Shown here piece by piece: positions 2 to 19,740 of a stretch of DNA of 64,000 nt (position 1 is its first letter; every line of letters starts with the position of its first letter). Source of the stretch: a virus; the IMG/VR virus record IMGVR_UViG_3300017788_000014, positions 1-64,000 of that record; one strand, written 5' to 3'. A program made the translations under genes and the position numbers. Under the pieces are notes generated by a model. The model had not been told where the DNA came from. It did no database searches and saw only the letters and a program-made list of their open reading frames with translations.

Positions 2-1500
2 AATATTACACGTAAAAATCCTGACCGACCGCTCGTTGAGGTCTTCTACGAAGACACCGACGAAAACAATGAAGGTTGTACACCCTGCCCCGAACCGATT
101 TTTACGATCACGCAAAAAGAGTCGACGGTTCAAGATGGCTGCAAAGAAATTCAAACCTGTGAGTGGGAAATCGATCTCTGCATTCCAGTACCTATTCCAC
201 GGCCACCGTGTGTGAACATCACACGCAAAAACTCAGACAGGCCATTGGTAGAGGTCTTTTACACCGGCGGTGACGACGAAAATTGCACGCCCTGTCCAGA
301 GCCGATTTTTACGATCACGCGAAAAGAATCGACGACAGAAGATGGCTGCAAAGAAATTCAAACCTGTGAGTGGGAAATCGACCTTTGCATTCCAGTGCCT
401 ATTCCACGGCCGCCGTGTGTGAACATCACACGCAAAAACTCAGACAGGCCATTGGTAGAGGTGTTTTACGAAAACACCGACGGAAACAATGAAAGTTGTA
501 CACCCTGTCCAGAACCTGTTTTTACGATCACGCAAAAAGAGTCGACGGTTCAAGATGGCTGCAAAGAGATTCAGACCTGTGAGTGGGAAATCGACCTCTG
601 CATTCCGGTACCCATTCCACGGCCTCCGTGCGTCAATATTACACGTAAAAATCCTGACCGACCGCTGGTTGAAGTCTTTTACGAAGACACCCTAGTGGAC
701 AACGAAACCGGGTTTTGCGCTCCCTGTCCGGAGCCGATCTTTACAATCACACAAAAAGAATCAATAACGCAGGACGGCTGCAAAGAGATTCAGACCTGCG
801 AATGGGAAATTGACCTCTGCATTCCGGTACCCATTCCACGGCCTCCGTGTGTGAACATCACACGCAAGAATCCTGACCGACCGCTAGTTGAGGTCTTCTA
901 CGAAGACACCGACGAAAACAATGAAGGTTGTACACCCTGCCCCGAGCCAATCTTTACGATTACCCGAAAAGAGTCGACCACGCAGGACGGCTGCAAAGAG
1001 ATTCAAACCTGCGAATGGGAAATCGACCTCTGTATTCCCGTACCCATTCCGCGGCCTCCATGCGTCAATATCACGCGCAAGAACTCAGACCGTCCGCTCG
1101 TCGAGGTCTTTTATGAAGACACCTTAGTGGACAACGAAACCGGGTCTTGCGCGCCTTGCCCCGAGCCAATCTTTACGATCACGCGAAAAGAATCGACGAC
1201 AGAAGATGGCTGCAAAGAAATTCAAACCTGTGAGTGGGAAATCGACCTTTGCATTCCAGTGCCTATTCCACGTCCGCCGTGCGTCAGCATCACACGCAAA
1301 AACCCAGATCGACCACTGGTGCAGGTGTTCTACGAAAATGCACCCGGCGGTGGTGACTCGCTTTGCACACCGTGTCCCGAACCAGTTTTTGAAATTACTC
1401 GTAAAGAGTCGACGAAACAAGACGGCTGCAAAGAGATTCAAACCTGTGAGTGGGAAATCGACCTCTGTATTCCGGTGCCCATTCCACGGCCGCCCTGCGT
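2..1500 (+). repeat. Near-identical tandem repeats of about 210-215 bp within the fibre gene
   Basis: Seven consecutive in-frame units of about 207-216 bp, each coding for [15 protein letters not shown]...CEWEIDLC..., lie head to tail; the first is cut by the window edge. They differ mainly in a short variable linker (for example TDENNEG, LVDNETG or TGGDDEN). That linker comes in a few recurring versions, which looks like recent duplication and shuffling by unequal recombination. Units after 1500 keep the protein pattern but not the DNA identity. Confidence 0.85.
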
Positions 1501-4500
1501 CAACATCAAAAAGAAAACGACGACTGATCCGCTAATTACAGTCGGCTACGAGGGCTGTCCGACCGTTGCCGGTCGACGTTCCGCGTTTAATATACGCAAA
1601 GTGCCGAGCGAAAAATCCGGCGACTGCGAAGAACTCGAAACTTGCGAATGGGAAATTGATTTAACACTTGTCGTACCCATTCCGAAACCACCGTGCGTCA
1701 GCATCACGCGTAAAAGTTCACCGTTTAACTTTGTGCACGTGGCGTATGAAGGCGCGCCATCATTGTCGAACAAGACGTCCAAGTTTCTTATCACCCGAAA
1801 ACCAACAATTCCGGGTACGTGCACCAAACCCGACTCGTGTGAATGGGAATTCGATCTGACGCTGGTGGTGCCGGTGCCGCGACCGCCGTGCGTGACGATC
1901 AATCGACAGTCGCAGGGCCAGTTCGTCTACGTCGGTTACGAAAACTGCCCTGAAGTCATCAACAAGTCGTCGAAATTTGTCATTACGCAGACAAGCGGCG
2001 GCGGCGGAAGCAGCACGTCGTCAGAGGAATTAGAGCCGTGCGTATGGAACGTCGACCTCGAAATTGTCGTACCGATTCCGCGACCGCCATGTGTTGTGCT
2101 GGAGCAGAAAAATTTCAGCGTCAACGTCGGATACAGAAATTCGCCGTGCGTCGTCGGCAAACAAAACAAGTTTTTAATCTCCCGCGCACAATCCACGCCG
2201 TCAACCGAATGCAAGCGCATCAACGAAGAAGAGTGCAAATGGGAATTCGAACTGGAACTCGCCATTGAGATTCCAAAACCGCCGTGCCCTATATTGCAGC
2301 CGTTGGGGTCGAATAAGATTCAAAGCCGTTTCTCGGATTCCAGCACACCATTTGGCGGCAACAATCGTTTCGGCATCATACCGCGACCGATTCCACAATT
2401 CGGCTGCGAAACGGCCGACACGTGTCAGTTTGATTTCGATCTGCAAATCGATATTCCCATTCCGCGCATTCCGTGTACAAAAATTAATGTGCGCCAACAA
2501 CAATTGAGCGTCGGATACGAAGAGCCGCAAAACAAACTCGAACTAAAAATCGAACCTAACCATCAGGAGAACAAAGGCTCGAATCAACCGCCCAATTGCG
2601 AATTTAATGTCGACATCGATTTGGCGATCAAGATTCCAAAACCGCCCTGCACCAAAATCTATCAGGGCGAGATCACCATTGAAAAAGTCTCGCCGAATCA
2701 AGACCCAGTATTCGAAGTCACGCCGCGCATCGATTGCGTTGAAGGCGAGTACAGTTTCGTTTACCTTGACTTCTATATCGAGTGGCCGTATTGCGAGCCG
2801 AAGTTAACCTACTCAGAAGAGTCGGAATTTGAAGAATGCTATTACATTCCGGGTTATGGCGGCTACTGCGATAAGTATCCGGGACAAGGCAGTAAATTCG
2901 AATTCACGATTACCAAAAAGGAATGCGAAGGTACATATCAGCCGGGTATTGGAATTGTCGGCGGCGGCGACTGTAGTTGCGAGTACGAATTCAAGTCTGA
3001 CATCTACCTCTCACTGCCCGTCGCCGAACATAAAGCCGGCGAAGTAAAAATAACTGGGCCGGGAGAAGAGTTCTGCTCTTTCGGCGATTCGTACCAGCCG
3101 CTGAAATCGGGCACAATTAAAATCGAGCCGCAGGGCGCGCCCGGCGGCGCTCCGGGCAGACTTCCGCAACTGTATCACGATCTCGAATTAGAGTTCTGGT
3201 GTTTACGCGGCGGCGATGTCAACATTACACCAGAAGGCATCGGTACGGGTCGAATTGAGATCGTTAAAACATTCGCCGGCTCGAAAATCAACCTCAATCT
3301 AGACTTTAATACAGTCTCCTGTCCCGAAGGTGGTGGCGGCGGGAGCGGAGGCGGCGGCGGCAATTGCGTTACCGGACCGAGAGGCGAAACAGGGCCATCT
3401 GGGCCAGAAGGTCCATCTGGTCCGAGTGGTCCATCTGGTCCGAGTGGTCCATCTGGTCCGTCTGGGCCATCTGGCCCAAGTGGTCCATCCGGCCCCACAG
3501 GCGCGACAGGCGCAACCGGGCCGTTTCCAAACGTTACGATCGGCGCCGTAAACGCACTGTCAGCCTGCGAAAGTCCGACCGTAAAACTTGCCGGCACAAA
3601 ATCTGATCGCATTTTAAACTTCGGCATACCAAAAGCCTCGCGCGTATTTTTGCAGGGCACAGTGCCTTTGGCGCCCAGTATGTCGCCGCAGGTTATAGCG
3701 GGCTATCAGGATTGCGACTTATATCTGCAATTTGGTATTCCGCGTGCGCCGCAAGTTGCCGTAAGCAGCGTCATCACACTCAATCCGGATCAAAATCCGC
3801 GCGTCTTCGGTAATAACGTCGCCGGCGACCTACTGCTCGATTTTGAATTGCCGCGCGCGCCGAACGTGACGGTCGGCACCGTCACAGAAGTTACGCCGTG
3901 CGTGACACCGGCTGTAACGGCAACTAAAACCAACGGCGACGTAAGCCTCAATTTTAAATTGCCGCGCGCTACCAAATTCAGCCTCGGCCCTGTTACGACG
4001 CTTCCGCCAAACAATAATCCGGGAGTTCTTCTCGGCCTTACAAGCACGTGCGATAACGTGCTTTTGTTTGGACTTCCGCGCGCGTCCATGTTTAAAGCCG
4101 GCAGCGTAACTGCGGGCTGCCCCAACAGCAAAATGACCGTGTCGTTAGAGGACGACAACGGCGACTACATCATTAATCTCGACATGCCCAGAGTTCCGAC
4201 GTTATCGATCAACAACGTCGAAACGGTTCCGCCGATTCAAGAGCCGAACGTAGAAGTAGAAAACGACGAATGCGGCGATGTGCTGTTGAATTTCAAACTG
4301 CAACGCGCGCCCACAGTTTCGGTCGCCGGCGTCAATCCGCTCGATCCAGATCAGCCGCCACTCGTCACCAGCGATATCGACGGCAACGGCGACGCGCTGT
4401 TGACGTTTGATTTACCCCGCGCGCCGACATTCACTGTCGGTAATGTGTCGGTCAATACCAAATTCACCGCAGCCGTTACAAACAGCGGCGCCAACGGCGA

Positions 4501-5686
4501 CATTATTCTTGACTTTGATTTACCGGTCGGCCCAACAGGCCCATCTGGCCCGACCGGCCCGCGCGGATTAGTAGGCCCCACCGGTGTCGGCGCTAGCGGT
4601 CCGACCGGACCTTCGGGTCCTTCCGGGCCGTCGGGGCCAACGGGGCCGTCTGGCGCGACTGGTGTAATCGGAGCCACAGGACCTACCGGGCCAATTGGAC
4701 TTACCGGACTTCGCGGCGTCGAGGGCCCGACAGGACCAATTGGACAAACTGGCGCCACCGGAGTTATAGGATTATCTGGCCCGCGTGGAATTATAGGTCC
4801 AATCGGTCCGACTGGTGTTGCCGGTGCAACAGGATTAATAGGCCCGGCTGGTGCAACAGGCGCCGTCGGACCCACTGGTATTACCGGCGCTACAGGGCCA
4901 ATAGGGCCAAGAGGTATTACAGGTTTAACCGGCCCGACCGGTGTTGCTGGTGCAACAGGATTAATAGGCCCGTCTGGCGCAACAGGAATTATAGGCCCGC
5001 GAGGCGTCACCGGGGCTACTGGTTTACAGGGCGCCACAGGACCACGCGGCGTGGTCGGCCTGTCTGGCTCAACTGGGCCGATCGGCATTACAGGCGCCAC
5101 CGGTTTGACAGGCCCCGCAGGACCTTCCGGACTACGCGGTATCGAGGGCCCTCGGGGTCCAATTGGCCCGACTGGTGTTGCTGGCGCCACCGGCTCAACA
5201 GGCCCAATTGGCGCGACCGGCGCCACCGGCCCGGCAGGACAACGCGGAGAACGCGGTTTTACGGGCCCATCCGGCGTCGCCGGCCCGGTAGGCCCACGAG
5301 GGCTTACGGGCAATACGGGCGCCATAGGGCCACAGGGGCCGCAAGGATCGGTGGGTCCGGCTGGGCCAGCCGGACCAATTGGACCGATTGGAGAACCCGG
5401 CCCGCGTGGACAAACGGGACCCCAAGGCCCGGCCGGTCCAATTGGCCCGAGCGGTTTGCGCGGCGTTAGCGGACCTGCTGGCCCATCTGGGCCGACCGGT
5501 CCAGTTGGCCCGTGCGGGCCGCCGGGGTCGCCGGGGCCACAGGGCGCAACCGGACCCGCTGGCGCGACAGGGCCGATAGGGCCGCCGGGGCCGAGCGTAC
5601 TGACGCCCGAACTTATTCAAGAACTGATCGCCGCGATTAACACGAATGCCGCGTTACGCGCCGCAATTCAAGCGGCTATTAACTGA
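2..5686 (+). CDS. Giant repeat and collagen-like fibre protein (5' end outside window)
   Basis: The frame is open at the left edge, so the N terminus is missing; 1894 residues are visible. First come about thirteen cysteine-rich units of roughly 60-72 residues. Each ends in a CEWEIDL-like strand followed by P-x-P-x-P-P-C. The first six or so are nearly identical at DNA level (2-1500) and later ones diverge. Next are a short Gly-X-Y collagen run dominated by GPS (about 3374-3524), nine units of about 37 residues ending in LPRA (3525-4530), a second collagen-like run of about 350 residues (4530-5600), and a short Ala/Ile-rich tail. Collagen-like runs in phages are known from trimeric tail or capsid fibres, so a long host-contacting fibre is the likely role. 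The beta-strand-rich repeats would form the shaft. A GTG at 212 lies inside the frame and is not the true start. Confidence 0.85.
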
Positions 5687-9334: not shown

Positions 9335-9613
9335 ATGGGGTGGAATGACCGCCTACCCGAAGACCCGTACTGGCCATCGTATTATGACGCCGAAGCCTAC
9401 GAAGAATGGCGCAAATATTTAGAGGCGTGCCAGAGCGAAGAACTCAACCCAACAGCGAATACCGCGGGTTTATCTTCGCAAAATATTGACCCCGTCGCGC
9501 TCGACGAACCGGCGCAGACAGAAACGACGACACGCGTGCTTATTGACGAAAATAAAAAACCCGCCGAAGTGAGCATCGTAGAGAGGCCCGGCGGGTGTGC
9601 TGCGCAGCAGTAA
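9335..9613 (+). CDS. Small acidic protein, 92 residues
   Basis: ATG with AGAGGAAAAA just upstream. The N terminus is aromatic and acidic (PYWPSYYDAEAYEEWRKYLEA), which is typical of small assembly factors. The rest is a low-complexity, Thr/Glu-rich stretch ending VERPGGCAAQQ. No domain is recognised. It is the last gene of this plus-strand run and converges with the minus-strand gene ending at 9625, with a hairpin at the junction. Confidence 0.72.
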   Translation: MGWNDRLPEDPYWPSYYDAEAYEEWRKYLEACQSEELNPTANTAGLSSQNIDPVALDEPAQTETTTRVLIDENKKPAEVSIVERPGGCAAQQ

Positions 9614-9648
9614 CGACAGACGACTTATTTTTTGTCTTTGTCGTTTTT
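9612..9648. terminator. Convergent-junction hairpin
   Basis: AACGACA-GAC and GTC-TT-TGTCGTT pair across an A/T-rich loop between the convergent ends at 9613 and 9625, and a T run follows on the plus strand. It lies partly in the final codons of the minus-strand gene. It could terminate plus-strand transcription. Confidence 0.45.
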
Positions 9649-10014
9649 CTGCGTGTAAATACTTTGCTCGGTTGTGTCTAGCGAGTTGACGTACTGCTGT
9701 ACAGCAACCCCGCGGTCGTATCCCGCATGCCAGATTTCGTTGTACCTGTCGCGCTCGTCCACTGCCGATATAACACCGCTTACAAAATTCTGAGTGGCTT
9801 CGGCAGATTGATCGATGCGCGACTGTTGCAACTGATAAGTCAAATCGGCTACCTGAGCGGCTTCAATGTTTAAAGCGCGCTCAGCAATACGCAATTCACG
9901 GCGCAGACTCTGCGATTCGATATACTGCGCCACGATAATCTGACAAAACAACGCAAATACAAAAACCATCACGCCAAAATTAAACACGCGCCACTGCTTT
10001 TTGGTGTCTGACAT
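9625..10014 (-). CDS. Membrane-anchored coiled-coil protein, 129 residues (inner-spanin-like?)
   Basis: Residues about 10-31 (VFNFGVMVFVFALFCQIIVA) form one transmembrane segment after a short basic N terminus. A long helical, heptad-like region (about 32-85) follows, then a hydrophilic Lys/Asp-rich tail. One N-terminal anchor with a periplasmic coiled coil is the build of inner-membrane spanins of the Rz type, but other small phage membrane proteins look the same. No overlapping outer-spanin lipobox gene is seen. A promoter-like pair lies upstream on the minus strand (10058-10085). Confidence 0.75.
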   Translation of the reverse strand: MSDTKKQWRVFNFGVMVFVFALFCQIIVAQYIESQSLRRELRIAERALNIEAAQVADLTYQLQQSRIDQSAEATQNFVSGVISAVDERDRYNEIWHAGYDRGVAVQQYVNSLDTTEQSIYTQKNDKDKK

Positions 10015-10092: not shown

Positions 10093-11277
10093 TCACGATT
10101 TTTGTGCGGCTAACGAAAACAATGTTGTCAAAGGAAGCAGTGACTCAGCCTCTTTTGTCTGAACTACCGCGGCTACCTTTTTTTCCTGCATTAACCGATC
10201 GAACATTGCCGCCATTCCGCGATCTAACGTCGGAACGATTGCGGCCAACTTTTCTCGATCGAGCAGAAGTCCGCCGGCGGTTACCGCATCAGCGAAGTCG
10301 TCGCCCAGCCAGTTCCGCACGTCGTCGACAGCCAATTTTTCAACATCGGCCAGCGCGTACACGTTGCCAGTCGTTGTCTCGACATTCTCGGCCATGAAGT
10401 CCGCGGCTGTCTTTTCGGTAATTGCGAATAATACCTCTTCGGGCCGCTGCAGTCCGCCCGCTTCAGAATACAAGCGATTCAGATGATTGACGCGATCGAA
10501 TTCGTCGACAGCCGCGGCCAGTTTTACACGCGTCGTGTGCGCTTTCGCATTCTCGGGATTCTTGTCCATAGCGTCCGCTAAATTAAACAACTCAGTCGCA
10601 GCAGTTTTGTTTTTGCGCCACACCAGCGTCGCGCGTTTGCGAAGCATATCTGTCGCGACCTTTAATGCGCACAGACCGTGCGCCGCCGTCACGTTTAACA
10701 TGTCGACGTGGTCTGAAACATCGGCGCCGTACGCTGCCGATTTGACAAGGATTTTTTCGGCAATGCAGCGCCGATCGTCGTAGCAAAAATCGTCGCGATA
10801 TGTCGCAAAATGCTGCGCTGCAAACTTAACCTCCGTCGCATTGCGCAACGGCCACATCCGTTCTTTTTGCCCCAATTCGCTCTCCCAGACAATGGCGAAG
10901 TAGTCGTCGGACAATTTTTCCATGTCCGTCTGGCCGGCTGCGGCGACTTTTTCCTGCAAATCCACAATCGTGTCAAAGATGCCAAAATACTCAGCAGCGG
11001 CTAGAATACGGTCATGGATAGCGGCGGCTGTTTTTTCATCAAAATTCGCGCGTTTGTCCGTAAAAAATAATGCGGACAACCAAGTTGCAGCCGCTGAATG
11101 ACAGGGGTAAAGTTTATTGTGGGCGTCGGCATACACGTGCCGCGGTAACGTATCGTCGCCGTGCGTCCGTTCGCGCGAGGCTGACTTTACAAATTCTGGA
11201 CGAGGAAATAATGTCGTCAACCGGTGCGTTTCGCGGTCACTGACGTCTTGGGTGTGGTCAAGCGGAGTGTTGGTCAT
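10093..11277 (-). CDS. Unknown 394-residue protein with a LYPCHSAAATW motif
   Basis: The start is the ATG at 11277 (MTNTPLDH), preceded on the minus strand by GGTAGGA; a longer N terminus is possible but lacks a site. The protein is soluble, helical and Ala-rich. A striking N-terminal segment, VYADAHNKLYPCHSAAATW (about residues 50-68), is the sort of motif conserved within one family, but I cannot name the family. Its ATG shares CATG with the start of the divergent gene at 11276, so one regulatory region probably serves both. Structural or virion-core role is a guess only. Confidence 0.78.
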   Translation of the reverse strand: MTNTPLDHTQDVSDRETHRLTTLFPRPEFVKSASRERTHGDDTLPRHVYADAHNKLYPCHSAAATWLSALFFTDKRANFDEKTAAAIHDRILAAAEYFGIFDTIVDLQEKVAAAGQTDMEKLSDDYFAIVWESELGQKERMWPLRNATEVKFAAQHFATYRDDFCYDDRRCIAEKILVKSAAYGADVSDHVDMLNVTAAHGLCALKVATDMLRKRATLVWRKNKTAATELFNLADAMDKNPENAKAHTTRVKLAAAVDEFDRVNHLNRLYSEAGGLQRPEEVLFAITEKTAADFMAENVETTTGNVYALADVEKLAVDDVRNWLGDDFADAVTAGGLLLDREKLAAIVPTLDRGMAAMFDRLMQEKKVAAVVQTKEAESLLPLTTLFSLAAQKS

Positions 11278-13909
11278 GATTTTTCCTACCTGCGTAGTGC
11301 GCCGACACAACCATTTTCAGGCGTTGTCGACTTTGGGGTTACTGTCTGAAAATACAATATTTCCCGCCGTAATTCAGTGCCCGTTTTGTGAGCAAAACGC
11401 ACTGTATTTGTTTGACGACCTGCAGACCGAGAATATCTGGCTTTCGTGTCAAAACTGCAAACGGCACGGAGATATCATAACTTTCGGATCACAACTCTGG
11501 AACATTAGTGTACCAAATACGCTCGAAAAATTCAGCCAAGCAGACGTCATTTCTCCGGGCAATTTTGCGACAATTGCCGAAGATTACGCCAAAGTTGCGC
11601 CAAGAATTCGCGCTACAGAAGACTTTTTTGCGGAAGCACACGGCCGTTTGTGGACGCACGGCGATCCTGTACTGACAAAAAAATTACTGAAACTTGGCGT
11701 GCGTAACGAGATCGCCGACCAAATCGATTTTCTTGGCGTGAGCACCTACACCAAAGTCGCCGAGATGTATCGCCTGTTTGGCCGCATTCCGCCAACCCGC
11801 GCTAGACGAAACGGCGAATTCATCGTTTTTCCGTTCCACACTCTGCCGCACAAAATTGCCGGTTTTTTACTGCTGCAATACACCGAAGACGGCGCGAGTC
11901 AGTATACGTTTTTGTCGCCGGAAAATTCGCGCCGAAAGGCCGAGGCTGGCTACTTTTTACTGCCGCAGGTCGTTTTTTCACCGGCCGAGGCGTTTAAGAA
12001 AACACAGATCATCGTGCATGATTTACTCTGGGCGCTCAAAGTCCAGTGCGCACAACTCTTTCGTGGCCAGCGATTTTTGCCAATTATGGTCGCCTATAAC
12101 AGCACGGACGCCGAAAGTTACGGCGGTACGTGGCGTTCATTTCCACAGGCCGATCGTGTCTTTGTCGGCAACGCATTAACGCCTGCATTGATCAGTCGTG
12201 CCGCAAACGCCAAAGGCTACGTTACCGTGCTGCGCGTTGGCGAATCTCCCGGCGGCTATAATTACACACCGCCAGTCATCAATCAAATTAAGGCCGCACG
12301 TAAAAAAGCACAAACGTGGCAGTCGGCGCTGCGCGTAGCGCTGAGTAATATTGACGACATGACCGCGCAGTCGTTTATCAGCAGCCTGACAATTCCTGTC
12401 GAAAAACTGGCGTTGTTCTTCAAGAAAAATCCGCATCCATTTTCGCCCGAGACGGTCGAACGCGCGCTGCTCGAAGTAAGACTCGCGCCATTAATTCCCA
12501 CGCGCATCATCACAACGCGCCGGTGGGCAATTACCGAACGCGAGCAGAGTTGGTGGGCAAAGGGTGGCGCGCAGGTCTGTAACGCCCAGCCGATAATCTT
12601 GAAAATACTGCAAAAAGAAAACGGCGAACGGCTTTACGTCGGCAAGGTGTTCTTCAAAGGCGAGGAATACGATTTTACAGCACCCGTAAGTACCATTGAA
12701 AACATTGGACTGCTTACGCACATTGCGAACGAACTTGCGAAACGCGGACGCCTCGTCATATTTAACAAATCGTGGAATCACAGAGCCCACGTTATCGCGC
12801 AACAACTTCACACGCCCGAAATTGTGCACGTGTCTACGCAGCGCGGCTGGGACGCAACTGCCAACACGTTCAAATTTGGTGAGTACGAACTTACGGCGAA
12901 CGGCGTTGTGCAAGACTCAATTTTCTGGCCCAACCACAAAATCCAAAACACGCTGCCGCCACTGGCGGCAATTGCTCCGCCGGCTATCTACGACCTGCTG
13001 ACGCCATCTCCAGACCACGCATTTATGTGGGCGACATTTGCAGCCACGGCGGCAAATTTACTGGCGCCAATTTTCAACAAAGAGTTCAAGTCAATTGCCG
13101 TTGAAAACAACAGTTTCGACGCCGCCATGACAGTTGCCGAAACGTTGGCCTGTCGCGTCGAGCAAAATACCGACGTGTCGCGCCGATATCCGGCAAACTT
13201 TATTCGCAAGGTTACAGCCGAAGATGCGTGGCCTGTCGGTATTTTCAACGTTTTCAATAACGATTACTTTTGCAGTGTCGCCCCAAAATGCCACAACCTG
13301 CCAATTATGGTCAAAATGTCGCCGACCGGAGCAGCGTCCGCGCTAAGTTACGGCTGGACGTTGTTGCGCGGCGGGCAGTTTAAAACCAATCCTTGCGTGT
13401 TAAAATACGCGCTGCCGGCCTACATTCAACACGTGCTCGCCAGCCGGCACCGCGCGTTCGTCAACAAAAAAGATTTTGTATTGGCAGTACTTGAAAATAT
13501 ACACGAATGGGCTCACAATATTTATGGCAAGACATTTAACCTTGAACACGCAAAAACAAAACTCGTAAGCGCCGATCGTGCTCACGATGCAGTCATGCGC
13601 GTTATTGGCGCGGCTGTATTAAACGACGAAATTTCGCTTTTGCCGCAACCGCGTACGCGACGACAGACACAAAACTACCTACTGAAACAAAAAACCGAAT
13701 ATTGGATCAGCAAAAAAGTCGTCGATCAGTATTTTTTCAATCGCTGCTATTTACCGCCAAATTGGTTCAGCCTGCTGACATTACTGCAACACAATGGTGG
13801 ATATTTAGGCGAAAAAATCATCCACAACTCTCCGGGCATATTGCTTTCCGCCGCATGGGCCGAACCGTTTTTTACATCGGAAATCGATGCCGTAAAAGAA
13901 GTCGGATAA
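11276..13909 (+). CDS. Large zinc-ribbon protein, possible primase/helicase-type ATPase relative
   Basis: 877 residues from the ATG at 11276 (GGAG 8 bases upstream). C35-P-F-C38 and C58-Q-N-C61 form a CxxC...CxxC zinc ribbon like those of phage primase-helicases. A Toprim-like stretch (PIMVAYNSTDAESYGG, then RVFVGNALTPALISRA) lies near residues 270-300. Later parts (HVSTQRGWD near 520, then FGEYEL and ATFAATAANLLAPIF) recall DUF927-type helicase-like proteins, but no clean Walker A is visible. It may be an inactive or highly divergent replication ATPase. It is separate from the main replication cluster, which has its own primase and helicase. It ends on the ATG of the next gene. Confidence 0.8.
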   Translation: MIFPTCVVRRHNHFQALSTLGLLSENTIFPAVIQCPFCEQNALYLFDDLQTENIWLSCQNCKRHGDIITFGSQLWNISVPNTLEKFSQADVISPGNFATIAEDYAKVAPRIRATEDFFAEAHGRLWTHGDPVLTKKLLKLGVRNEIADQIDFLGVSTYTKVAEMYRLFGRIPPTRARRNGEFIVFPFHTLPHKIAGFLLLQYTEDGASQYTFLSPENSRRKAEAGYFLLPQVVFSPAEAFKKTQIIVHDLLWALKVQCAQLFRGQRFLPIMVAYNSTDAESYGGTWRSFPQADRVFVGNALTPALISRAANAKGYVTVLRVGESPGGYNYTPPVINQIKAARKKAQTWQSALRVALSNIDDMTAQSFISSLTIPVEKLALFFKKNPHPFSPETVERALLEVRLAPLIPTRIITTRRWAITEREQSWWAKGGAQVCNAQPIILKILQKENGERLYVGKVFFKGEEYDFTAPVSTIENIGLLTHIANELAKRGRLVIFNKSWNHRAHVIAQQLHTPEIVHVSTQRGWDATANTFKFGEYELTANGVVQDSIFWPNHKIQNTLPPLAAIAPPAIYDLLTPSPDHAFMWATFAATAANLLAPIFNKEFKSIAVENNSFDAAMTVAETLACRVEQNTDVSRRYPANFIRKVTAEDAWPVGIFNVFNNDYFCSVAPKCHNLPIMVKMSPTGAASALSYGWTLLRGGQFKTNPCVLKYALPAYIQHVLASRHRAFVNKKDFVLAVLENIHEWAHNIYGKTFNLEHAKTKLVSADRAHDAVMRVIGAAVLNDEISLLPQPRTRRQTQNYLLKQKTEYWISKKVVDQYFFNRCYLPPNWFSLLTLLQHNGGYLGEKIIHNSPGILLSAAWAEPFFTSEIDAVKEVG

Positions 13910-16980: not shown

Positions 16981-17053
16981 GCCGGTGTAACTCAGTTGGT
17001 AGAGTAGCAGTTTTGTAAACTGCCTGTCGTCGGTTCGACTCCGACCACCGGCT
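16981..17053 (+). tRNA. tRNA-Thr (anticodon TGT)
   Basis: A full cloverleaf can be drawn. The acceptor is GCCGGTG with CACCGGC and the D arm is ACTC/GAGT. The anticodon stem is GCAGT/ACTGC with loop TTTGTAA and anticodon TGT. The T arm is GTCGG/CCGAC with a TTCGACT loop. The discriminator is T and the 3' CCA is not encoded. It would read ACA and related Thr codons. Confidence 0.93.
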
Positions 17054-17120: not shown

Positions 17121-17870
17121 ATGACGATGTTGAAGAACAGCAAAAAGACCCGCGCGGCCAACGCGCATCTCGGACCAACCGACGACAAGAGTGACGCCGC
17201 GATTGCCGGCAGGCTCAATGTCACTATTACAGCGCCCAACTTTAGGGAAATGTCGGTCGAAGTCGTCGGCGCAACACCGATGGTGCAACTGGCGTTTGGC
17301 GAAAAGGCACGCAACGCCATGCGCGAAAAGCAGGCGGCGGGCTCGACCGCCAAAAGGGGTAAGCGAGAAGCCAAGGACTTCGAGGCTGCATTTGAGCAGG
17401 CCATCCACCGCAGCCGCGAAGGCTGGTGCGGTATTCCAGCCGGCGCTGTGCGAGCGGCAATGATTCGCGCCTGCTCGCTCGTCGGTTTTGAGATGGTCAA
17501 GGCCAAGATGTGTCTGTTTATCCGCGGCGATGGCTACGACGCGGTTGAGGGCACGCCGCTGATTAGGATGTTCCGCGTGGACGAGGACGGTAACGAAATT
17601 GCAGCAGAGCCGCATCACGTTGAACACATGGTGCACAACGCCAACGGTGTTGCCGATATTCGTGTTCGGGCCATATACGACGAGGGTTGGCGCGCCCGCA
17701 TTCGCGTGCGTTACGACGCGGATATCTTTACCGCAGACGAAATCACTAATCTGCTGCACCGCGCCGGCTTGCAGGTCGGCGTCGGAGAGGGCCGCCCGTT
17801 TTCTCCGAAGAGTTGCGGCATGGGTTGGGGTCAGTTCGACCTTGTTCTCGATAACAATAACAACGGCTGA
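17121..17870 (+). CDS. Conserved phage protein with GEGRP...GMGWGxF motif, 249 residues
   Basis: Start at ATG 17121 (or 17127), with a purine-rich AAGAAAG upstream. The pattern is a beta start (NVTITAPNFREMSVEVVGATPMVQLAF), EKARNAM, a basic KRGKREAKDFEAAF helix, GIPAGAVRAAMIRACSLVG, and a C-terminal VGVGEGRPFSPKS-GMGWGQF. From memory this matches a widespread phage and prophage family without a known function, with a fold that may be RAMP-like. It is 2 bases ahead of the next gene, and from memory the two families tend to travel together. Together they probably form one functional unit. Confidence 0.8.
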   Translation: MTMLKNSKKTRAANAHLGPTDDKSDAAIAGRLNVTITAPNFREMSVEVVGATPMVQLAFGEKARNAMREKQAAGSTAKRGKREAKDFEAAFEQAIHRSREGWCGIPAGAVRAAMIRACSLVGFEMVKAKMCLFIRGDGYDAVEGTPLIRMFRVDEDGNEIAAEPHHVEHMVHNANGVADIRVRAIYDEGWRARIRVRYDADIFTADEITNLLHRAGLQVGVGEGRPFSPKSCGMGWGQFDLVLDNNNNG

Positions 17871-17872
17871 GT

Positions 17873-18331
17873 ATGCCAAACAAGCAAGCAATTCGCGTAG
17901 AACTCGCGCAACTGCAAAAAGAACACGGCCTATTGCGAGCCGAAGACGTTGTAAATTTTGCGAGAAATGAAGATACCGCGCTTCATGGTGAATTTGAATG
18001 GGACGACTCTGAAGCCGCCCATCAATATCGACTCGCTCAGGCGCGAAAAATTATTCGGGTCAACGTGCAGATTTTGCCAACTGGGCATGATAACGTTGTT
18101 GTGCCCGTATACGTATCACTCGCACAAGATCGCGATCAACCCGGCGGTGGTTATCGCCGACTTGTAGATGTTATGAGCGACGAAGAGTTGCGTGCGCAAC
18201 TTTTACAACAAGCGCTGACCGATTTTGAGCGCGTTGGGCGTCGATACCGCACGCTGAAAGAACTAGCCCCGATTTTTGAGGCGCTAGAACAAATTTCGCA
18301 AGTTATTCGTGCAGAATTAACTCGTGTGTAA
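17873..18331 (+). CDS. Conserved phage protein paired with the preceding gene, 152 residues
   Basis: Features of a family I recall next to the GEGRP protein are an N-terminal helix (RAEDVVNFARNEDTALHGEFEWDDSEAAHQYRLAQARKIIR), a beta segment (VVVPVYVSL), GGYRRLVDVMSDEELRAQLL, and a C-terminal helix. FEWDD..AAHQYRL is the strongest signature. It is soluble and small, with no catalytic motif. It is followed by the GGNNN array, so any read-through transcript would carry the G-rich strand as RNA. Confidence 0.8.
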   Translation: MPNKQAIRVELAQLQKEHGLLRAEDVVNFARNEDTALHGEFEWDDSEAAHQYRLAQARKIIRVNVQILPTGHDNVVVPVYVSLAQDRDQPGGGYRRLVDVMSDEELRAQLLQQALTDFERVGRRYRTLKELAPIFEALEQISQVIRAELTRV

Positions 18332-18339
18332 CTGCTTTT

Positions 18340-19020
18340 AAACACGGCAGGCACGGCAGGGTGCGGAGAGGCAAGGGAGGCGCGCCGCGGGGCGGCAGGC
18401 AAGGCTGGGCGAGGCGCGGCAGGTGTGGTCAGGCTGGTCAAGGCATGTTGAGGTTTGCTCCGGTCTGCTCTGGCAGGCATGGCAGGGCCGGGCGAGGACA
18501 GGAATGGCGCGGTTGGGTATGGCGCGGTCGGGCTGGGTACGGCAGGCAAGGACAGGAACGTCACGGCGGGGCAGGGACTGCACGGGCACGGCAGGCGAGG
18601 CGCGATATGGCGTGGTCAGGTCGGGACAGGCGAGGCAGGCATGGCGTGACAAGGTAGGGCTGGGTAGGGTCTGTCATGGCAGGGCAGGCACGGCACGGCG
18701 TGTCCCGGTAAGATCGGGCACGGCAGGCTTGGACGGGCAAGGCTCGGACGGTAAGGTAACGCTCGCAAGGGCATGGCATGGCAGGCTTGGTAGGGCACGG
18801 CCACGCTCGCCGCGGCACGACACGGCAGGCACGGCTAGTCATGGTCGGGTTTGTCCCGGAGAGGTCGGGCTGGGTACGGCAGGTTCGGCAAGGACGGCTG
18901 GTCACGGTGAGGCTCGTCGCGGCAGGCAGGGTACGGCGCGGTTTGGCGCGGCACGGTTTGGCTCGGCACGGCAGGAATGGCGCGGCGCGGCTCGGCAGGG
19001 ACTGGCAAAGCGCCGCTATT
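18340..19020 (+). repeat. About 680-base GGNNN pentanucleotide array (non-coding)
   Basis: The stretch is a degenerate tandem of five-base words starting with GG, most often GGCAN or GGTAN. From 18476 to 18540 thirteen words in a row begin with GG in strict register; elsewhere the register slips by one base now and then. The strand is G-rich with almost no A or T runs. Every four consecutive GGNNN words fit a two-tier G-quadruplex pattern. Frames over it stay open only because of the composition, on both strands. No gene is credible here. It fills the longest gene-free gap (18332-19084). Confidence 0.88.
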
Positions 19021-19024
19021 AAAA

Positions 19025-19052
19025 CAAACACACGTTGTGCAGCGTGTGTTTG
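19025..19052 (+). terminator. Hairpin ending the repeat region
   Basis: CAAACACACG and CGTGTGTTTG form a perfect 10-bp stem around TTGTGCAG just downstream of the GGNNN array and 32 bases before the gene at 19085. There is no long T run, so it may be a leader structure rather than a terminator. Confidence 0.45.
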
Positions 19053-19084: not shown

Positions 19085-19342
19085 ATGAAACGATACCACG
19101 ACGAAAAACACATCATCGAAAATCGGGCCAAAAAATACCGGCATATTAATGGCGGGTGGTTAGGCTATTCCGTGCCCAATACCGGCGAACGACAACCTCA
19201 CGCGCCAGAACCGGGACGCTACAGAAAAACATTACGTTGCGGCGGTTGTACCCGTGCGCGATGTCAGGTCTGTCATTCAAACAAATATCCGAAACGTATT
19301 CCCACAAGGCGAGAACGCCAACAATGGCTCGAAAACGAGTAA
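19085..19342 (+). CDS. Small basic Cys-rich protein, 85 residues
   Basis: The ATG gives MKRYHDEKHI; upstream bases belong to the array and hairpin. The C-terminal half carries CGGCTRARCQVCHSNKYPKR, two close CxxC pairs in a strongly basic setting, plausibly one zinc site that binds nucleic acid. It overlaps the next, also zinc-binding, gene by 19 bases. I do not recognise the family. It is the first gene after the G-rich array. Confidence 0.7.
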   Translation: MKRYHDEKHIIENRAKKYRHINGGWLGYSVPNTGERQPHAPEPGRYRKTLRCGGCTRARCQVCHSNKYPKRIPTRRERQQWLENE

Positions 19343-19740
19343 ACGATTTTGGCGGAAGAAACGCCGCCGGCAACGGTAAGTGCCGCGCGCTTCTGGTCGG
19401 GCACAATCTAATCAGCATGCGCTGCATCTCGTGCAACAAACTCAACTACGTTGGGTTTCTTGAAACGCAACGCGCGGCAAAACCGCGCTGTAATGCGTGC
19501 GGCGGCGGACTCTCTGAAATAGAAGAAAGTCACAAACGTCGAACTGGCTGCTCGTACAAAAGAATGGAGCGAGTAACCGCAGCCAATCTCGGCAAAAAAC
19601 CATTTACGTGCGCAACCTGTAAAAAACATTTTAGATCGGCTGTCGCGCTTGGTTTGCACGTCAAAGAACAACATCCAGAAGCGCCGCCAATCGACGCGCA
19701 CCAAATGGAACTTCGCGAGCGGTGGCGACGCACTCTTTAA
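19324..19740 (+). CDS. Zinc-ribbon plus classical C2H2 zinc-finger protein, 138 residues
   Basis: Two metal sites are visible. The first is a ribbon with C34-x2-C37 and C56-x2-C59. The second is a textbook C2H2 finger, C96-x2-C99-x12-H112-x4-H117, within FTCATCKKHFRSAVALGLHV. The rest is basic. C2H2 fingers of this eukaryote-like form occur in some bacterial and phage regulators (for example Ros-type proteins), where they bind DNA. Overlap with the preceding Cys-rich gene suggests joint function, perhaps in transcription control or in binding the adjacent repeat. Confidence 0.8.
   Translation: MARKRVNDFGGRNAAGNGKCRALLVGHNLISMRCISCNKLNYVGFLETQRAAKPRCNACGGGLSEIEESHKRRTGCSYKRMERVTAANLGKKPFTCATCKKHFRSAVALGLHVKEQHPEAPPIDAHQMELRERWRRTL

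Follow-up and report, generated by a model that had tools for sequence, protein, structure and literature searches.

A probable VIPR locus with a GGCA-punctuated guide-RNA array and a predicted rusA target in an uncharacterised phage

The region 17121-19003 of IMG/VR virus record IMGVR_UViG_3300017788_000014, of which we analysed positions 1 to 64,000 (the window), is very probably a VIPR locus, comprising a gene for the Vipr protein, an accessory gene and an array of guide RNAs (vrRNAs). VIPR (Viral Interference Programmable Repeat) is presented in a preprint as a relative of CRISPR, guided by RNA, that serves phages in their competition with one another (PMC13142463; bioRxiv 2026.04.26.720920, April 2026). 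As described there, its components are Vipr, an accessory gene and vrRNAs in which GGY and NN alternate; the vrRNAs bind double-stranded DNA such that two bases are paired and one is skipped; our literature search found no second paper on VIPR. In the window we observe the identity of Vipr, the GGYNN code, a punctuation of the array by GGCA, the order and strand of the genes, and a match of guide 13 to a phage gene. The likeness to the published systems extends to a Vipr homologue, a second small gene and a same-strand intergenic array, all borne by a phage (Table 1).

Table 1. Features of the probable VIPR locus, in window coordinates
Feature	Position	Strand	Remarks
vipr, single-domain RAMP (Cas7-like) protein, 249 aa	17121..17870	+	glycine-rich loop VGVGEGRP; phrog_4652, E=9e-15
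probable accessory gene (vap), 152 aa	17873..18331	+	all-helical model; phrog_15946
vrRNA (guide RNA) array	~18346..19003	+	GGYNN units, GGCA steps, ~13 guides; basis: period, unit composition, punctuation
guide 3	18422..18471	+	NN: GT CA TG AA AT GA TT CC CT CT; decoded between GGCA steps
guide 4, most regular	18476..18540	+	NN: AT AG CG GA CA AT GC TG AT GC CG TG AC
guide 5	18545..18589	+	NN: AA CA AC AC GG AG CT CG AC
guide 11	18828..18877	+	NN: AC TA AT CG TT CC GA CG TG AC
guide 13	18925..18969	+	NN: AG AC GC TT GC AC TT TC AC; predicted target rusA
12-bp hairpin, possible transcript end	19025..19052	+	22 bases past array; predicted fold, z only -1.3

The product of the first gene is, as judged by profile and model comparison, a Vipr protein. 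A family profile built from 73 homologues matches the Vipr structure (PDB 36pp; 36pp_D, "SUSP1 Vipr protein") with E=4.1e-41, while the next-best match is Csm5 at E=0.08. The AlphaFold model (pLDDT 88.6) has its best Foldseek matches among Cas7/Csm3 subunits (E 5.6e-6, probability 1.0, with modest TM-scores of 0.3-0.5). Searches of this protein against Pfam and NCBIfam gave no significant match, and a single-protein search of IMG/VR with one query found no relative. In its predicted RAMP fold and its glycine-rich loop the protein resembles the Cas7/Csm3 subunits of class 1 CRISPR-Cas systems (types III and VII), but the locus differs from these in having neither cas genes nor a repeat-spacer array, and the similarity at the sequence level is limited to that to Csm5. 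None of the window proteins tested matched a cas model, and the tandem repeats of the window include no CRISPR-like array.

The second gene is likely the accessory gene, for which the preprint uses the names vap1-6 (PMC13142463). Its homologues (phrog_15946) were found in 26 loci of the first round of comparison, 25 of which also encode Vipr, and they occur in many VIPR loci from bacterial genomes as well; a fold search of the PDB with the model of this protein gave no match. The first-pass annotation had pointed to a conserved gene pair (17121-18331) adjoining the array, and this pair indeed accompanies such arrays in other phages and in bacteria. The start codon of vipr is preceded, at a distance of 67 bases, by a tRNA-Thr gene (anticodon TGT, 16981-17053).

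That the five-base period is real is evident from autocorrelation of 18341-19019, where identity at lag 5 is 0.51 whereas dinucleotide shuffles give 0.31 (z=12.2); at this lag 85 GG-GG pairs stand against 30.5 expected (z=11.4). Runs of eight GG words at period 5 number 10 in the window, all of them within the array, and do not occur in 100 shuffles. The period, as well as the thirteen successive GG words reported for 18476-18540, had been recognised in the first-pass annotation, and the thirteen words are exact. Over the 118 pentamers of the array the consensus is GGYNN, with G at position 1 in 98% and at position 2 in 84%, position 3 being C in 60% and T in 27% (a pyrimidine in 87%) and positions 4-5 nearly free, although several units deviate from GGY. 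The unit with its variable NN equals the published GGY/NN code, in which a vrRNA is composed of 9-16 tandem units with GGY conserved and NN hypervariable (PMC13142463). An Rfam search returned no family at the array, folding of the array RNA as a whole is unremarkable (z -1.1), and no promoter-like site was found. Evidence for the hairpin downstream of the array is weak because of its low z score and the lack of a strong U run.

The interruptions of the period, previously described as occasional one-base slips, are present but they are recurrent and structured: 13 of the 16 four-base steps are GGCA, compared to 29% of five-base units which start with GGCA (binomial P=3e-5), and these steps are spaced at 48 +/- 10 bases. 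Their recurrence also accounts for the drift of the autocorrelation peaks, which lie at 5, 10, 15, 19, 24 and 29. When the array is cut at the four-base steps, segments of n x 5 + 4 bases result, with GGCA as the final four. The supposed slips are thus a four-base GGCA punctuation, which splits the array to give about 13 guides, most of them 8-13 units long. Punctuation of this type recurs in Vipr-bearing loci, where GGCA represents 151 four-base steps, compared to 24% of the five-base units. In a set of 237 GGCA junctions gathered from 37 loci, the first N of the units adjoining the junction favours A or G (0.30-0.32 bits), a bias that amounts to 0.18 bits in the second unit past the junction and to 0.03-0.08 bits elsewhere; the missing G at the last base before the junction is an artefact of unit cutting. 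Guides 4 and 11 end in three identical units (GGTCG GGCTG GGTAC, followed by GGCA; 18527-18546 and 18862-18881), suggesting that guides were duplicated or recombined with each other.

In VIPR type II, one of the seven types of the preprint, each repeat tract ends in an invariable structured 3' tail (PMC13142463). The guides of the window differ in that they abut, being split by GGCA alone and lacking a structured tail. This layout may correspond to the staggered arrays with overlapping vrRNAs which are mentioned in the same text (PMC13142463). The locus might be a VIPR variant with tail-less, head-to-tail guides punctuated by GGCA, an undescribed helical accessory protein and a broad-range guide against rusA, a proposal to which, unlike the assignment to VIPR itself, we give somewhat less than even odds.

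Arrays of this kind are widespread in viral DNA. At least 120 loci in IMG/VR contain eleven successive GG words at period 5, the criterion of our scan, and among the matches listed 102 are of the GGYNN type, their units being varied and carrying a pyrimidine at position 3. In the DNA fetched for these listed matches, a Vipr homologue was found in 77 of the 102 GGYNN-type loci but in just 4 of the 18 with other repeats; of the 25 GGYNN-type loci without a Vipr homologue, some are short or are cut by contig ends. Among the matches listed, the array is on the same strand as the Vipr gene in 151 of 153 cases, and it typically starts 1-20 bases past a stop codon. The closest Vipr relatives from bacterial assemblies are from a Planctomycetaceae MAG (L127, 63% identical) and a Planctomycetota MAG (L128, 57%), which is only a hint that the host of the window's phage belongs to the Planctomycetota. 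In L127 the order of Vipr, accessory gene and array is the same as in the window, as is the punctuation, and the array is of nearly equal length (616 bases), while the guides are no more alike than shuffled ones (best similarity 0.667 vs 0.668). Between these two arrays, GG and GGCA have been retained while NN was turned over, which is the pattern expected of guides.

In punctuated loci the correlation of NN pairs is highest with codon positions 1-2 (0.49), followed by 2-3 (0.13) and 3-1 (-0.34), and the same ranking is seen in other loci (0.66, 0.31 and -0.04), but the fit is a small gain over a model of independent bases, and no preference for positions 1-2 is seen in the 90 pairs of the window taken by themselves.

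Candidate targets were sought in IMG/VR by exact matching of six one-skip patterns from five guides (3, 4 twice, 5, 11 and 13). No match was obtained for guide 3, guide 11 or either pattern of guide 4, and the patterns of guide 4 were also without a match in 392 Planctomycetota genomes; guide 5 has one match, in a capsid-like gene and out of codon phase. Guide 13, by contrast, matches 61 viral contigs at 18 of 18 bases. In 58 of these 61 the site is antisense to the codons of the motif DVDNVAKAVL in a short gene, rusA, and every skipped base of the rusA sites is a third codon position. All of the 7 representative target proteins belong to Pfam RusA (E 4e-9 to 6e-28). RusA is a Holliday-junction resolvase, and the motif contains its catalytic acidic residues. 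The 57 complete sites comprise 32 distinct 26-mers, from 46 distinct proteins, and with the skips at third codon positions guide 13 would therefore tolerate synonymous change. A convincing target was thus obtained for only one of the five guides searched, and we consider it reasonably probable, from the sequence match, that the natural target of guide 13 is rusA of other phages.

The alternative that deserves most weight accepts the VIPR locus but attributes the rusA match to chance, an 18-base gapped word having met a conserved and abundant motif; to this we give a substantial probability, though one short of even. The 58 rusA matches amount to about one independent match because all of them are one conserved motif, and about eight pairs of guide 13 are fully informative because the last NN is biased near GGCA junctions. 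By a rough estimate, a collection as large as IMG/VR would contain one or two chance matches to a pattern of 18 bases. No second guide of the window matches the rusA contigs, and a link through the host is absent, as the RusA gene of the Planctomycetaceae assembly whose Vipr is closest differs from guide 13 at 4 of the 18 bases. However, a full match in 58 contigs contrasts with 0 or 1 for the five other patterns, and the skips are at wobble bases throughout, in agreement with what is reported of natural VIPR targets (PMC13142463). Also, rusA is a phage gene, and the motif was not seen in the phage itself (79.7 kb). Comparisons beyond the window's own guides gave no signal: guides of other VIPR loci matched the rusA contigs without excess over controls, cross-targeting among the fetched VIPR loci did not exceed that of shuffled guides, and guide 1 of a Bradyrhizobium locus (L130) had 3 two-mismatch matches in 249 genomes of the genus compared to 2 for a control pattern.

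It is very improbable that the array is instead a DNA element, in which a G-quadruplex or R-loop tract, with zinc-finger proteins as possible binders, serves as replication origin, fork barrier, packaging site or recombination site. Among the roles offered in the first-pass annotation, that of an RNA has stood, while those at the DNA level are not supported; it is the gene pair which accompanies the arrays. GG at every five bases does allow two-tier quadruplexes, and local GC skew climbs to 0.24 across 18001-19000. However, neither the pyrimidine at position 3 nor the GGCA punctuation is explained by a quadruplex or other DNA element, nor are the constant link to Vipr on the same strand and the match of guide 13, so that quadruplex formation may occur but is unneeded. 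The suggested binding by zinc-finger proteins is likewise without support: of the two ORFs concerned (19324-19740 and a smaller one at 19085), the first was compared and lacks both a counterpart in any compared locus and a homologue near other arrays.

That the array encodes a repetitive protein is hardly credible, for although ORFs of up to 199 aa span it and two such arrays elsewhere carry protein annotations, the G-rich sequence has few stops on this strand, the period of five shifts the frame at every GGCA step and NN in the close relative is no more alike than in shuffled guides, all in line with the non-coding nature assumed at first sight. The two annotated cases are gp48 of Mycobacterium phage Donkeykong (L122, 4005-4350), adjoining the Vipr homologue gp49, and gp43 of Gordonia phage Pipp (L124, 3956-4180), adjoining the Vipr homologue gp42; both are listed as a "hypothetical protein" over a GGCA-punctuated GGYNN array. 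These two are probably guide arrays rather than genes, which suggests that, in mycobacteriophages and gordoniaphages, some annotated "hypothetical proteins" are of this nature.

Returning to the VIPR locus, a course of events can be proposed by analogy with the preprint, which reports RNA expression, the pairing rule and silencing for its own members (PMC13142463); expression of the array, assembly of the complex, one-skip pairing and silencing are transferred from there. The array would be transcribed with or after both upstream genes, from the same strand, giving guide RNAs that may be cut or trimmed near GGCA. Vipr would coat each guide such that GGY is held from pairing while the following NN pairs with target DNA, and the complex, reading two bases and skipping one, would bind matching DNA, block its transcription and so silence it. 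For guide 13 the predicted outcome is silencing of rusA in competing phages. If this is true, the guide would act on a whole class of rivals, because it reads the RusA motif at codon positions 1-2 only and so matches many DNA sequences, and it would provide a testable natural target, with a single guide reading a conserved protein motif over 32 different DNA sequences.

New in this study are a VIPR member in an uncharacterised phage, a punctuation by GGCA that is seen in 37 loci, and the prediction of a natural target. The GGCA rule makes guides excisable from continuous arrays and opens them to target searches at scale.

Other forms of punctuation exist. One VIPR array (L107, 4600-5047) has guides of GGTNN units split by GGCTAATG every ~53-68 bases, and in an array of 1.6 kb and 289 GG words (L109, 1956-3547) groups of guides are separated by a recurring conserved linker, GGGAGCAGCAGCATCCGGCG(T/C)AAAGGGATGGAC. 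Elsewhere in the window, 9559-9595 on the minus strand matches the Rfam abiF RNA (RF03085) with 43.3 bits against a gathering score of 37. The neighbouring proteins on that strand, encoded at 9625-10014 and 10093-11310, matched no PADLOC defence model, and the latter has no Pfam family. Finally, a tandem repeat of ~213 bases and many 9-base collagen-like (Gly-X-Y) repeats occupy 1-1508 and 3335-5593, within one long ORF (212-5686).
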